Below, piece by piece: positions 1 to 9,069 of a DNA stretch of 32,307 bases. Numbering within the stretch: position 1 is the first letter of the stretch; every line of letters begins with the position of its first letter. The DNA is taken from positions 1 to 32,307 of the IMG/VR virus record IMGVR_UViG_3300020467_000024. One strand, given 5' to 3'. Under the pieces are notes generated by a model. The model made no database searches, was not told where the DNA came from, and worked only from the letters and a program-made list of their open reading frames with translations. The position numbers and the translations under genes were made by a program. The stretch is from a virus.

Positions 1-69
1 AATCATCCTAATGAATTGGGTCATAAGATTATTGCTCAAATGCTAATAAATTTTATTGATAAATTATGA
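1..69 (+). CDS. SGNH/GDSL hydrolase-like protein, C-terminal fragment (cut by window start)
   Basis: Frame 1 is open from the first base to TGA at 67-69 and gives 22 residues starting NHPNELGHKII. This matches the C-terminal block V of SGNH hydrolases, where the catalytic His lies in an HPN context followed by a helix. The next gene has the same signature (MHPNEEGSQIL near residue 189), so the two are tandem relatives. The stop overlaps the next start as ATGA (66-69), which suggests translational coupling. Only the tail is visible, so catalytic completeness cannot be judged. The ORF is too short to show up by length alone; the call rests on the motif and the overlap. Confidence 0.6.
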   Translation, partial: NHPNELGHKIIAQMLINFIDKL

Positions 70-830
70 AAATTTATTTTGATGGATGTTCATGGACTCA
101 TGGTTGTGAATTACAAGAACCTGAGAATACTAGATGGTCAAAATTAGTTTCTAATCACTACGGAGCAGAGGAATATAATATATCAGAAAATGGTAGTTGT
201 AATAGAAGAATAGTTAGAAATTTACTTGAACATAATTTAGATGACTATGATATTATAATTATACAAATGTCTATGAATATTAGACAAGAATATTTTGACG
301 GAGATAATTGGCAGAGAGTATCATTCTCATCATCTAATTTAAAAGACGCTTCACACCAAGAGTTTTTTATGCACTACTACTCTGAAATATATCACTCCGA
401 ATACGGACACACTGATGATAAAATTTATTACACGTTGATAAAAAAATTATTAGAGAAGAAAAAACACCTAGTTGTAAGTATTGATAGGGGAAAATCTCAA
501 AGCAAATTGCCTTTAGATATGGACTTATCTCTCATGTTAGATGACTCAATGAAAAGAAGAGATGCTTTGAAATCATTGGGAAAAACACCACCATACTCTA
601 GAAATAATAAAGATTATAGATGTAAAGGAATGCATCCCAATGAGGAGGGTAGTCAAATTTTGTCACATTATATTATAAGTGCTCTTGAATCAGAAGAATT
701 TAAAAATGATGCGATTTGTTCACATCATAATGGTTGGTGGTCAAAACTTGACCATGATCAATGGAACAAAGATTTGATTAAGGAAAGAATAAAACAAGAA
801 AGAGAAAAAGGGTTGACAAAACCTAAATAG
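66..830 (+). CDS. SGNH/GDSL hydrolase-like protein
   Basis: This 254-residue protein starts with a typical SGNH block I, FDGCSWTHG, with Ser9 as candidate nucleophile. Next come a block II-like NGSCNRRI (residues 42-49), a block III-like IQMSMNIR with Asn71, and HPN at 190-192 with candidate catalytic His190. The Asp normally two or three residues before that His appears to be replaced (CKGMHPN), so the triad may be incomplete or rearranged. SGNH enzymes are esterases or acyl-hydrolases acting on lipids and on acetylated sugars; the substrate here is unknown. The gene overlaps the previous SGNH fragment by ATGA. Its last codons contain the -35 box of the gene 32 promoter. The C-terminus is rich in Lys and Glu. 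Confidence 0.65.
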   Translation: MKIYFDGCSWTHGCELQEPENTRWSKLVSNHYGAEEYNISENGSCNRRIVRNLLEHNLDDYDIIIIQMSMNIRQEYFDGDNWQRVSFSSSNLKDASHQEFFMHYYSEIYHSEYGHTDDKIYYTLIKKLLEKKKHLVVSIDRGKSQSKLPLDMDLSLMLDDSMKRRDALKSLGKTPPYSRNNKDYRCKGMHPNEEGSQILSHYIISALESEEFKNDAICSHHNGWWSKLDHDQWNKDLIKERIKQEREKGLTKPK

Positions 831-841
831 TTGTTTATAAT
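813..841 (+). promoter_or_regulatory. Consensus sigma70 promoter for gene 32
   Basis: TTGACA (813-818) and TATAAT (836-841) are both perfect consensus boxes with an optimal 17-bp spacer. Transcription should begin near 848. The -35 box lies inside the end of the upstream SGNH gene. A host-type promoter fits early or middle expression of a replication protein and contrasts with the TATAAATA late boxes elsewhere in the window. Confidence 0.85.
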
Positions 842-847
842 AACCTT

Positions 848-909
848 TGTATATGCAAGGGATCAATCCCGTAATCTACTCAATCCGACGAATCCAACGA
901 ATCAAACTC
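848..909 (+). promoter_or_regulatory. Gene 32 mRNA leader: hairpin plus 9-nt repeat array, candidate gp32 operator
   Basis: Downstream of the predicted start of transcription is a small hairpin, GGGA-TCAA-TCCC (859-870). Four in-phase 9-nt units then run up to the start codon: AATCTACTC (873-881), AATCCGACG (882-890), AATCCAACG (891-899) and AATCAAACT (900-908). The units fit AATCNNACN. They lack G-rich complements, so they should be unstructured in RNA. No Shine-Dalgarno sequence is visible. In T4, gp32 represses its own translation by binding a pseudoknot and then the unstructured leader cooperatively; a similar role here is inference. Confidence 0.5.
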
Positions 910-1800
910 ATGACATTCGCAAACCTAAAGAAACAATCAAAACTTGGCAGTCTTACTTCCAAACTGACCAATGAGATCGAAAAGATGAACAAAGGCACTA
1001 ATGGTGCTGATGAAAGACTATGGAAGTTAGAGGTCGATAAAGCAGGTAATGGTTATGCTGTTATCCGTTTCCTACCTGCACCTGATGGTGAAGAACTACC
1101 TTGGGCAAAGTTATACTCACATGCTTTCCAAGGACCTGGTGGATGGTACATTGAGAATAGTCTCACCACATTAGGACAAAAAGATCCTGTATCAGAATAC
1201 AACAGACTCCTATGGAACAGTGGTATTGATGCAGACAAAGACTTAGCACGTAAGCAGAAGAGAAAACTTACATACATTAGTAACATCTATGTTGTAAAAG
1301 ATCCTACCAACCCACAGAATGAGGGTAAGGTATTCTTATACAAGTTTGGTAAGAAAATCTTCGACAAACTCACAGCAGCGATGCAACCTGAGTTTGAAGA
1401 TGAGGAGGCAATCGATCCATTCGATTTCTGGAAAGGTGCAAACTTTAAGTTGAAAGCAAAGAACGTAGCAGGTTATAGAAACTATGACAGTTCTGAGTTT
1501 TCTGCTGTCAGTCCTTTACTTGATGATGACGATGCACTTGAAGCAGTATGGAAGAAACAGTATGCACTTACTGAGTTTACAAATACTGATCAATTCAAAT
1601 CATATCAAGATTTACAAACACGTTTAGATGCTGTATTGAATAACAAACAGACTCGTGTCGCACCAGAGGTTGCTCAAGAAGAAGAAACCATCACACCAGT
1701 ATCACTTGAATCAGTAACCACCCCTGTAGGGTCAGGTGCAGGTTCAGCACCCACTGATGATGATGCACTATCATACTTTCAAAAGTTAGCAGAGGAGTAA
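910..1800 (+). CDS. 32: gp32 single-stranded DNA-binding protein
   Basis: From ATG 910 the protein has 296 residues and follows T4 gp32 throughout. A basic N-terminal LAST-like segment (KKQS, residues 7-10) mediates cooperativity in the family. The core follows with WKLEVDKAGNGYAVIRFLP, GGWYIE, NIYVVKDP and NEGKVFLYKFGKK. The C-terminus is acidic (DDDALSYFQKLAEE) and in T4 contacts replication partners. The protein coats ssDNA in replication, recombination and repair. The T4 zinc ligands Cys77, Cys87 and Cys90 have no counterparts: the matching stretch, residues 82-104, contains no Cys, although His71 is kept. The frame stays open upstream to TTG 847 and ATG 853, but ATG 910 was chosen because it restores the family N-terminus. 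A terminator follows. Confidence 0.95.
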   Translation: MTFANLKKQSKLGSLTSKLTNEIEKMNKGTNGADERLWKLEVDKAGNGYAVIRFLPAPDGEELPWAKLYSHAFQGPGGWYIENSLTTLGQKDPVSEYNRLLWNSGIDADKDLARKQKRKLTYISNIYVVKDPTNPQNEGKVFLYKFGKKIFDKLTAAMQPEFEDEEAIDPFDFWKGANFKLKAKNVAGYRNYDSSEFSAVSPLLDDDDALEAVWKKQYALTEFTNTDQFKSYQDLQTRLDAVLNNKQTRVAPEVAQEEETITPVSLESVTTPVGSGAGSAPTDDDALSYFQKLAEE

Positions 1801-1829: not shown

Positions 1830-1862
1830 AAAAATGGCGGAAAAAAATTCCGCCATTTTTTT
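1830..1862 (+). terminator. Rho-independent terminator after gene 32
   Basis: The stem pairs AATGGCGGAA with TTCCGCCATT around an AAAAA loop (1843-1847) and is followed by a run of seven T. The A-rich 5' side would give a U-tract in reverse too, but no minus-strand gene approaches it. It isolates gene 32 from the following oxygenase gene. Confidence 0.9.
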
Positions 1863-3073: not shown

Positions 3074-4728
3074 TAGAATCCTATGTCTACGCCAGTGTCA
3101 CCAGAAGAATCATCAAAGAATTGATTGAGAGGTCCTTGTTCTAGAACCTTATCTTGTAATGCCATAACAGAAGGTCTTGCTGACTCTGTATCATAATCAT
3201 CAGCGAGTATGGGTGATAATTCTGTAAATCCAAGAGTCATGATTGATCTTATTGGTTGTGATATTGCTGATGGATCATCATACGCTTGATACATGCCATC
3301 AGGAGTAAAGTTTATAGCACAATTTGTAAGAGCACAGATTTTGAAACTATTTAAGGATTTTATTCTCTGACCATTATTCATAAACGCCAATCTAAAAACA
3401 TTCGGAGAGAGAAGAAAAAGATCAGAGTCTGTGCCTCTAGAAGGTAGCATTCCTTGCTTGAAAAATCTCATGATTTGTCTTGCTATTTTTGCATCTTCTG
3501 GGTTTTGTGGTGCGAAGTTGAAAGAAAATTGAAACGATCTAAGTTTAGGTCCTGCGAATAGTAACTCTAAATTAGGATTTATTGCTTTGCCAGTTGATCT
3601 GGTCACGAATTGATTTTGATCAACATTTATATTGATCTGTGACAGTGCTGCTTTTGCTGCTGCAGCAGAAATCAGTGTATTTGCGTCACCTCCTTCTCCA
3701 GATGCCAAGCTATTTACTAAGGTTTTAGCTCCTGTGCCAATTCCTTTTATAAGATCTGCAACATTACTATCTCCTGATAGAGTATTTCTTATACCACCAA
3801 ATGTACCCATGAACGCTGCTGCTTCAAAAGCATTTGCTCTGCCTTCTCCCCAACTTACCCCATTAGAGGTTTCCAATTGATTTGGGATTGGCATCTTCAC
3901 GGTGCCCATATAATTTCTACCACCTACTCCACCAAGACCACTACTTGTTCTTTGTAGTCCTTTTGTTAAAATACTTGAGGTTTTTTGTTGCCTTACCTTT
4001 GCATCATCAAATTTTTTATTAAAATATCCACCCAAATAACCTGATTGAGGTGCAGTATATTTGAACATATCAAACTTCATGTAATCCTGTGAAGGACCTG
4101 CACCAGATTTATATACAGCATTCGCAGGGTACTTTATCGATTTACCACCAAAAAAAGGTTTTCTAGGTTTTGTTGTGTTTTTGTCTTTTGCTTCATTATT
4201 GCCTTTATTATCATCCTCCTTAATTTCAGCATCACCTGGTTCAATTACAAATTCTACCGAAGGAACTGCTGTCTCAACCCCCAATGTATTGACATTATCA
4301 CCCTCTACAATATTTTGTAAATTATTTGCTTCCAATGCAGCGTCATGAACATCAACACTATTTTTACTGAATAACACACCTCTTCTCATATTATTGAGAT
4401 TATTTTTATATGCTTGACTTCTCTCTCCATTCTCATCCTGTGCGATTATGAGTCCTAGAGGACTATTAGGTGATACATCTTCAAAAATATACCCTGTGCC
4501 TCCATTTACGCCTTTTTTAATCCTGATTTTAAGCGGTTGTCCGTAATTAGGACTATTTAAGTCACCCTCTAATACTTCATATACATTTAAACCACCTGGA
4601 TATAAGGAACCCACAGGACCTTTTGCATCCAATCTATATGAGAAGGAAGAAGAAGTATTTTTCCCATCATAGGGAATTCTAATACCGCTTCTTGGAAAAT
4701 TTGGAGTGGATGTCGGAGTGGATGTCAT
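3073..4728 (-). CDS. 48: gp48 baseplate tail-tube cap
   Basis: This 551-residue protein has a C-terminal half typical of gp48. Visible segments include FQFSFNFAPQNPEDAKIARQ, IMRFFKQGMLPSR, FTPDGMYQAYDDPSAISQP and LGFTELSPI. gp48 sits on top of the hub and, with gp54, forms the platform from which the tail tube grows. T4 gp48 is 364 residues, so this one is about 190 longer. The extra length is a low-complexity N-terminal half with a Lys/Asp/Asn-rich stretch (EDDNKGNNEAKDKNTTKPRK) and little recognisable similarity. Its start overlaps the stop of the upstream gene as TAATG. It is the second-to-last gene of the minus block. Confidence 0.85.
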   Translation of the reverse strand: MTSTPTSTPNFPRSGIRIPYDGKNTSSSFSYRLDAKGPVGSLYPGGLNVYEVLEGDLNSPNYGQPLKIRIKKGVNGGTGYIFEDVSPNSPLGLIIAQDENGERSQAYKNNLNNMRRGVLFSKNSVDVHDAALEANNLQNIVEGDNVNTLGVETAVPSVEFVIEPGDAEIKEDDNKGNNEAKDKNTTKPRKPFFGGKSIKYPANAVYKSGAGPSQDYMKFDMFKYTAPQSGYLGGYFNKKFDDAKVRQQKTSSILTKGLQRTSSGLGGVGGRNYMGTVKMPIPNQLETSNGVSWGEGRANAFEAAAFMGTFGGIRNTLSGDSNVADLIKGIGTGAKTLVNSLASGEGGDANTLISAAAAKAALSQININVDQNQFVTRSTGKAINPNLELLFAGPKLRSFQFSFNFAPQNPEDAKIARQIMRFFKQGMLPSRGTDSDLFLLSPNVFRLAFMNNGQRIKSLNSFKICALTNCAINFTPDGMYQAYDDPSAISQPIRSIMTLGFTELSPILADDYDTESARPSVMALQDKVLEQGPLNQFFDDSSGDTGVDIGF

Positions 4729-7481: not shown

Positions 7482-9069
7482 ACAAGTTGAATCTACTTCT
7501 AGCATGTTAGGTGGTAGGAGAAGGGATGGTGCATCAAGAAATACAGTTGCCACTTCAAAGTTATTACAGCAGGTTGATAAACTAAGTCAAAATGTTAGCG
7601 TTTTGAGGGGGCAATTAGAAACAGATAGAAGAGATAGACTTACATTTGACAATAAAAAAGATCAACTTCTAAAGAAAGAAAGGAAATCTTTAGAAGATCT
7701 GAAAGCAGCAACGATAAATTTTAGAAAAATAATTGGAGTAGCAGCAGGGGCAAATGCACTAAGGCAGTTTTCACAAGGAGACATTGGTGGAGGATTACAA
7801 GATACTGCTGTTGCTATAACAGCGTTTCTACCTGAAATAATAGGAATTACTCAAAATGTTGTCGTAGGTGGTCTTGCTACAAGAGGTTTACTTGGTGGTG
7901 GTAGAGGTTTAGGTGCAGCAGGTGCAGCAAGAGGTATGGGAGGTAGAGCAGGTTTATTGGCATTACCTCTTTTAGCACTAGCACCATTATTAATGGGTGC
8001 AGGTAGGCAAAATAATCAATCTAATGCTCCAACTGCAGAATTTAGAAGAGAACAACAAACAAGGAGAATAAGAAAGGATACGATATCTGCTCCAGACACA
8101 TTGAGATTTGATGCTCAATTAGATAAGTTCGATAGAATATTAAGTTCTTTAGGTAGAAAGGAGGATGTACAAATACCAGAGGAGGTCGATTTAAATTTTG
8201 GAGAAGATGAGGAACCTGAAAGAAATATGAATGATAAAATATCAAGTTTTATAGATTTATTGAACCCACTTCAAGGTACAAAAGATTTCTTTGGAAATTT
8301 GTTTGGTATAGGTCCTACTCGTGAAGAGGTAAGACAGAGGGGAGAATTAATTGGATTAGACAAACTGAATGATGCTTTCGCAAAGATGCTAATAAACATG
8401 GGTTTGATTGACCCTAAAAGTCCTAAATTAGAAGAATTAAGAAAGAAAGAAGAAGAGAAAGAAAGAAATAACACCAGAAATAGAACCGATTTAGGCAACA
8501 GCAATTTGGATAAAATCGATACGAGTGACTTTGAAGCTGGAGCTTTTAGTGATATAACTCAAGAAGATATCGATAGGGAAAATGCATTAGATAATGTACA
8601 GTCAGAAACACCTTTCATATCAGTGAGAGATCAGTTGAAAAAAATATCTGAATCTTTGGCAATAGGTGATGATAATAAGATAGATTTTAGTAGTATTATA
8701 AAAGATACAGATAAAGCAACTAAATTATCATCTACAGTGACTAATTTTCTTAATTTTATTGAGAATGATTTTATTCCTAACACTGATGAAAAGAAAATTG
8801 AGAAAAATGCAGAGAACCTCATGGGTAGTGTATTGAATAAGGTTCCAGAGATCAAGAAAGAATCGTTAGAAAATGCTCCACCTTTGATAAAAACTGTTTT
8901 TGGTGGTATGTTTGGTGAAGATGGTCAAACATCATTCTTTGATGAAGCAAAAACACAATTTCATGGTGAAACGGGAAATGCAGTATCTGATGTGCATGTT
9001 GATCCAAATTTCACAAAAAGTTTTGATAAGTTTATCAATGGTTTGATGATGGGTATTGTCAATGATTGA
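7465..9069 (+). CDS. Tape-measure-like hub protein (first of two)
   Basis: This 534-residue protein has a charged, helical N-terminus (residues about 25-90, coiled-coil-like). A Gly-rich hydrophobic region follows (about 125-185) with GGGRGLGAAGAARGMGGRAG and LLALPLLALAPLLMGAG. The rest is long, charged, helix-forming and ends with a short conserved-looking tail, FDKFINGLMMGIV. Coils flanking a Gly-rich hydrophobic segment are typical of tape-measure proteins; in T4 that role belongs to gp29 (590 residues). I could not align it to gp29 or gp28 by eye, so no symbol is given. The ATG at 7465 lies inside the end of the preceding gene, and the end overlaps the next gene. Confidence 0.65.
   Translation: MQTPGRQVESTSSMLGGRRRDGASRNTVATSKLLQQVDKLSQNVSVLRGQLETDRRDRLTFDNKKDQLLKKERKSLEDLKAATINFRKIIGVAAGANALRQFSQGDIGGGLQDTAVAITAFLPEIIGITQNVVVGGLATRGLLGGGRGLGAAGAARGMGGRAGLLALPLLALAPLLMGAGRQNNQSNAPTAEFRREQQTRRIRKDTISAPDTLRFDAQLDKFDRILSSLGRKEDVQIPEEVDLNFGEDEEPERNMNDKISSFIDLLNPLQGTKDFFGNLFGIGPTREEVRQRGELIGLDKLNDAFAKMLINMGLIDPKSPKLEELRKKEEEKERNNTRNRTDLGNSNLDKIDTSDFEAGAFSDITQEDIDRENALDNVQSETPFISVRDQLKKISESLAIGDDNKIDFSSIIKDTDKATKLSSTVTNFLNFIENDFIPNTDEKKIEKNAENLMGSVLNKVPEIKKESLENAPPLIKTVFGGMFGEDGQTSFFDEAKTQFHGETGNAVSDVHVDPNFTKSFDKFINGLMMGIVND

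Follow-up and report, generated by a model that had tools for sequence, protein, structure and literature searches.

A start-codon-registered array of short repeats in the gene 32 leader of T4-like cyanophages, a candidate operator for gp32 autocontrol

In phage T4, the means by which the single-stranded DNA-binding protein gp32 distinguishes its own message from other single strands has been called unclear ever since the work of the 1970s to 2000s (PMC535899, PMC3014915). The T4 operator combines a 5' pseudoknot with an unstructured stretch of UUAAA/UAAA repeats in which the ribosome-binding site lies, and both elements are needed for autogenous repression (PMC535899). A review from 2010 calls for studies of gp32 autocontrol in diverse T4-related phages (PMC3014915). 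The locus described here raises the question anew. In a viral stretch of 32,307 nucleotides (IMG/VR record IMGVR_UViG_3300020467_000024, hereafter the window), short repeats of other letters run at a nearly constant spacing up to the start codon of gene 32. Is this array an operator, and is gp32 its reader?

Gene 32 (910..1800, + strand) encodes a T4-type single-stranded DNA-binding protein of 296 aa. The product matches Pfam PF08804 (gp32, E 6e-46) and PHROG 224 (E 3e-120) and resembles the solved T4/RB69 gp32 structures 8gme, 2atq, 2a1k, and 1gpc. Its start at 910 is conserved among related loci. A sigma-70 promoter, TTGACA-17-TATAAT (813..841, + strand), matches the consensus at 12 of 12 positions and, by the usual promoter spacing, predicts a transcript start near 847-849. 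The predicted gene 32 mRNA leader (849..909, + strand) is about 61 nt long and, by folding, mostly unstructured; with a start near 849, the array occupies most of it.

The surroundings of the gene show several further features. The promoter spacer contains CTAAATA (823..829, + strand), a putative late promoter core one mismatch from NATAAATA, the T4-type late promoter core reported for cyanophages (PMC2984593). CTAAATA or ATAAATA is found in the same place in the related loci L001-L005, L014, L016, and L019, and its retention fits a proposed overlap of early and late promoters. The gene upstream of gp32 (window positions 66-830, 254 aa) has no Pfam or PHROG match, and P-SSM2, S-SM2, and SynMITS9220M01 have a DUF1825-family or small hypothetical gene in that place instead. 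Just 3' of gp32, the inverted repeat AAAATGGCGGAA...TTCCGCCATTTTTTT (window 1830-1862) resembles an intrinsic terminator, though it was not listed by the scan that gave the promoter.

Five AATC cores are present in the window leader, at 865, 873, 882, 891, and 900, with spacings of 8, 9, 9, and 9 nt. They define five repeat units on the + strand: AATCCCGT (865..872), AATCTACTC (873..881), AATCCGACG (882..890), at the position where many relatives have GAGG, AATCCAACG (891..899), and finally AATCAAACTC (900..909), which is AATCAAACT at 900-908 plus C 909 and adjoins the ATG at 910. An earlier note on this DNA, made from the letters alone, had all letters and coordinates right (GGGA 859-862, TCAA 863-866, TCCC 867-870, 9-nt units 873-908). 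Its four contiguous units at 873-908 are there, but the count was one short, unit 1 at 865-872 having been missed. The observation is thus confirmed and was understated; the interpretation attached to it is partly supported, being right in outline and wrong in some details that are taken up below.

When the 61-nt leader was shuffled 200,000 times, a chain of five cores at 8-10 nt spacing never arose, nor did a five-core chain of any 4-mer in 20,000 shuffles. Besides the array and its complement, the 32-kb window has just one further five-core chain, a low-complexity AGAA run near 8464. Lone matches to AATCNNACN are not enriched across the window (24 observed, 23.3 expected), so it is the phasing, and not the motif alone, that is unusual. 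Tandem Repeats Finder assigns merely 2.9 copies and a score of 38 to the array, values so low that an ordinary repeat scan would miss it. An Rfam scan of the window gave no match at the gathering score.

To place the array among its relatives, we took leaders of related gp32 genes from IMG/VR, of which 59 are non-redundant (below 90% nucleotide identity over gp32). Neighbouring ATC[CT] cores in these leaders are 8-10 nt apart in 176 of 184 pairs, with 17 pairs at 8 nt, 87 at 9 nt, and 72 at 10 nt; the other 8 pairs are longer, and none of the 184 is at 4-7 or 11-13 nt. In the last 50 nt of the 59 leaders, AATCC occurs 2.32 times per leader, compared with 0.49 in shuffles, and upstream of 189 other open frames at the same loci its frequency is 0.058 per leader. 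The cores are also registered to the start codon: the distance to the ATG is 5-6 nt for unit -1, 15-16 for unit -2, 25-26 for unit -3, 34-35 for unit -4, and 43-44 for unit -5. The earlier note had named, beforehand, a phase lost in close relatives as grounds for giving up its reading; the phase is kept.

A typical related leader reads AATCCCCCGAATCCAATTAATCCGAGGTAATCCAA-ATG, with the Shine-Dalgarno sequence GAGG built into unit -2. In a more strictly filtered set, 19 of 32 related leaders have a Shine-Dalgarno sequence, mostly as this GAGG, and the subclade of the window has none. The absence remarked on earlier is therefore correct for the window and peculiar to its subclade. Some gp32 leaders of the same clade (Syn9, S-T4, L051, and L052) have degenerate arrays. 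In P-SSM2 (L201), gp32 is annotated to begin at 2018, which is 75 nt inside the conserved frame; the conserved start, at 1943, comes after the array.

Similar spacing is found with other cores in other T4-like lineages, which were collected as gp32 with 46-62% identity to Stenotrophomonas phage gp32 or found together with T4 and KVP40-type gp32. An AUAC core, as in AATACAACGCAATACAACGC, recurs at 8-11 nt (86 pairs) far more often than chance would give, for example in 15 pairs at 11 nt where 0.5 would be expected, and T-even-type leaders have CUGU repeats at 10 nt. The mean spacing is 9.33 nt for AUCY, 9.79 nt for AUAC, and 9.86 nt for CUGU, the last from 7 pairs only. A motif-free autocorrelation is highest at 9-10 nt for the cyanophage-type set, at 10-11 nt for a second set, and at 10 nt for the T-even set, and is only weakly peaked for a fourth. 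Control leaders treated in the same way give the 3-nt period of coding sequence. On the gp32 tree, leaders with the same core type group together. Over 140 sequences, the ATCY label changes 5 times, compared with 28.3 in shuffles, and the ATAC label 20 times, compared with 36.4. In one gp32 lineage (L247, L250, L259, L264, and L316), the 80 nt ahead of gp32 contain no obvious array but two strong hairpins, in which a GGGGAGTTCCC core recurs and the outer pairs vary; the S-PM2 hairpin GGTTGGGAGTTCGCAACC resembles them.

The link between the phased array and gene 32 is near-exclusive. Whole genomes were searched with exact core chains; chain scoring without background correction gave long, meaningless chains. 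In the complete genomes of P-SSM2 and S-PM2, the gp32 leader contains the only three-core chain that ends at a start codon, and in that of Syn9 the gp32 leader is degenerate. Across ten complete cyanophage genomes, three phased ATCY cores give scattered matches, from which those in gp32 leaders stand out by position. No array was found in other leaders of these ten genomes, where the scattered matches are only partly annotated, and one non-gp32 match, conserved in several of them, falls inside the gp55 coding sequence. Among six large contigs of the AUAC type, three phased AUAC cores are located at the gp32 leader in five; the three other AUAC matches in these contigs comprise two within open frames and one before a UvsX gene. 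The array is missing from 36 of 37 uvsX leaders. The exception is a phased AUAC array at L475:800-860, before the UvsX gene at 857-1921, and L478 belongs to the same lineage; no other array turned up in a leader that does not belong to gp32. Since the array is confined to one lineage among the 37, uvsX serves as a negative control, and uvsX as a second regular target was rejected except in that lineage. A fixed-gap pattern scan of viral contigs returned gp32 leaders along with many coding repeats and was not used for frequencies. Apparently non-coding tandem arrays of AATCCCAGG and AAAATCTTAG were seen in unrelated viral contigs (L173, about 3809-3850; L135, - strand), with no gp32 downstream.

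The leader in which the array lies is low in structure. The window leader folds no better than its shuffles (z = +0.27), and related gp32 leaders have a mean MFE of -2.9 kcal/mol, compared with -6.6 kcal/mol for other genes at the same loci. An unstructured leader running into the ribosome-binding site is thus supported. Folding, in a model that leaves pseudoknots outside its scope, gave only a weak 4-bp hairpin, GGGA-TCAA-TCCC (859..870, + strand; centroid -4.9 kcal/mol), whose 3' arm falls within repeat unit 1. This hairpin is common to the window and L001; a GGUG-CACC stem is possible at a shifted place in L004, L014, and L016, a hairpin is possible only with a long loop in L002, L003, and L005, and most array leaders among the related gp32 leaders examined have none. 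The letters once proposed as a nucleation element are present, but for most relatives the hairpin was rejected as a conserved nucleator: even among the closest relatives its stem shifts place and changes letters, and most leaders have no such stem. In many related leaders, the predicted transcript start is almost where the array begins. Stronger 5' hairpins occur in S-PM2 and S-RIM44, together with sparse arrays, and a structured 5' element may stand in place of repeat units in some lineages.

The protein of this clade also differs from that of T4. The zinc module Cys-X3-His-X5-Cys-X2-Cys was found in none of 32 gp32 sequences (the window and 31 relatives), and the first 230 residues of the window gp32 contain no cysteine. 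Most T-even gp32, with pseudoknot or UUAAA/CUGU leaders, have the zinc module. The gp32 of L243 (S-RIM44), which has the strong 5' hairpin in its leader, keeps CPVC. Operator style and zinc module may be tracking together.

Comparison with the T4/RB69 operator (PMC535899, PMC3014915) shows the leader of the same gene, a homologous protein, and short, unstructured repeats that run into the ribosome-binding site. The differences are a core of AAUC(C)NNNN and not UUAAA/UAAA, units 8-10 nt apart in window-type leaders and about 5 nt apart in T4/RB69, at most a weak predicted hairpin with no demonstrated pseudoknot, no Shine-Dalgarno sequence in the window, and a gp32 without the zinc module. The window array therefore lacks two defining features of that operator, the UUAAA units and the zinc-module reader. 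Of the likeness to T4 and RB69 that had been proposed for this leader, the repeat half finds a counterpart in the array, whereas the hairpin as a conserved nucleation element is not supported. The RB49 gene 32 leader is reported to have no pseudoknot (PMC535899, PMC3014915); as to whether it keeps UUAA units, the two papers contradict each other. RB49-type leaders are alike in being gp32 leaders in which no pseudoknot has been found and different in their core letters. In the T-even-type leaders recovered here, taken as a group, the core is CUGU and recurs in phase about every 10 nt. The protein TRAP is an oligomeric reader of spaced (G/U)AG triplets that acts by attenuation in response to tryptophan. 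It shares with the present case short cores set at regular intervals along an unstructured leader, and an oligomeric reader, which on the gp32 side is proposed. It differs in protein and fold, which are unrelated, in spacing, and in its tryptophan-responsive attenuation, and we claim no membership.

The best reading of these sequences is that the window array works like the T4 gp32 operator in outline, with a new core and a fixed register of ~9.5 nt. We give a probability of roughly two in three to the array being an autogenous translational operator of gp32, whose cores (AUCY, AUAC, CUGU, and UUAAA) have drifted between gp32 lineages while the ~9.5-nt spacing was kept. Three steps of this reading are inferred: recognition of the array by gp32, repression as its effect, and cooperative gp32 binding as the source of the register. 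The leader mRNA would be kept unstructured and would present AAUC(C) cores 8-10 nt apart, registered to the start codon. Once gp32 is in excess of the available single-stranded DNA, monomers would bind the cores and align into a cooperative cluster along the leader. This cluster would cover the ribosome-binding site, and gp32 synthesis would stop. The core letters would be read only loosely, with the spacing retained.

Several points count against the gp32-operator reading: no pseudoknot was found by a folding method that does not cover such structures, though T4 repression needs one, some arrays in the same clade are degenerate, one uvsX leader has an array, and the zinc module is missing. 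Moreover, the site size of T4 gp32 is 7 nt whatever the sequence of the single-stranded DNA (PMC7826291, PMC10484735), so T4 biochemistry gives no reason to expect sequence cores that recur every 9-10 nt. This measured value does not bear out the suggestion that a 9-nt period approximates a gp32 monomer site. Either the register of RNA-bound gp32 differs from that of the DNA-bound protein, or cyanophage gp32, which is without the zinc module, differs, or the reader is another protein.

An unlikely alternative is that the array enhances translation and raises gp32 synthesis, loading ribosomes through ribosomal protein S1 or through AUCC:GGAU pairing near the 16S 3' end. The position of the array, unstructured and adjoining the start codon, would suit such a role, as would its retention in the window and its nearest kin, which have no Shine-Dalgarno sequence at all. 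In many relatives, the array surrounds GAGG to give GAGGUAAUCC, a near complement of the 16S tail, whose complement we take to be GAGGUGAUCC. However, the leaders have GAGGUA(A)UCC and not the fully complementary GAGGUGAUCC, and AUAC and CUGU arrays of equal spacing mismatch the 16S tail. Pairing with 16S rRNA is disfavoured because these other lineages keep the spacing with non-complementary cores. A general ribosome signal would also be expected before other strongly expressed phage genes, where the array is absent.

Another RNA-binding regulator might read the array instead, be it RegA or some unknown protein of the phage, or one from the host, which we consider improbable. RegA is found across T4-like phages and binds unstructured leaders (PMC3014915), RB69 RegA selects AAU/UAA repeats, and a reader other than gp32 could explain the array in the one uvsX leader. 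Yet RegA represses many genes, and the array is almost confined to gene 32. The tracking of core type with gp32 clades also speaks for gp32, weakly, since genes of one genome share their history.

It is very improbable that the array acts at the level of DNA, as phased half-sites for a transcription regulator or as an iteron-like replication site 3' of the promoter. A spacing of 9-11 bp is about one turn of DNA, and a consensus promoter is located just upstream. Against this, the register is set by the start codon, a Shine-Dalgarno sequence is embedded in the repeats, the period in the clade of the window is 9.3 and not 10.5, and the array lies entirely within the predicted transcript. Slippage can generate a 9-nt tandem repeat, but a minisatellite that expands and contracts without function is barely plausible, as cores are retained while spacers differ in sequence and length, and the start-codon register is retained across lineages with under half of their gp32 residues in common.

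Least credible is a coding array, translated as an in-frame N-terminal extension of gp32 from ATG 853, a start that the earlier note had listed as fatal to its proposal: the frame is open, at equal length, in the window, L001, and L004, but an open upstream ATG (-57) is found in only these 3 of 75 related leaders, their variable sites have no clear third-position bias, ATG 853 would sit ~4 nt from the predicted 5' end, and coding is ruled out in general because spacings of 8 or 10 nt, which shift the frame, make up 89 of the 176 and most relatives have in-frame stops within or near the array.

In the open-access literature searched, which leaves most subscription journals outside, we found no prior report of a phased array or of cyanophage gp32 leaders, and the open-access cyanophage reviews and papers searched do not mention gp32 autocontrol in T4-like cyanophages. 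Taken as a gp32 operator, the arrays predict such autocontrol in these phages, which are abundant in the ocean. They also provide natural operator variants by the dozen, which follow a simple rule of core and spacing that is directly testable. Tentatively, and with the odds somewhat against it, we suggest that gp32-family SSBs may in general read a phased RNA ruler, in which a lineage-specific core every 9-10 nt, registered to the start codon, would offer periodic weak contacts that cooperativity sums, with no need of a pseudoknot. Operator and protein would then have diverged together throughout the T4-like phages, also in the lineages that lost the zinc module. If this is true, a supposedly sequence-indifferent SSB would recognise its own mRNA through periodic weak contacts.
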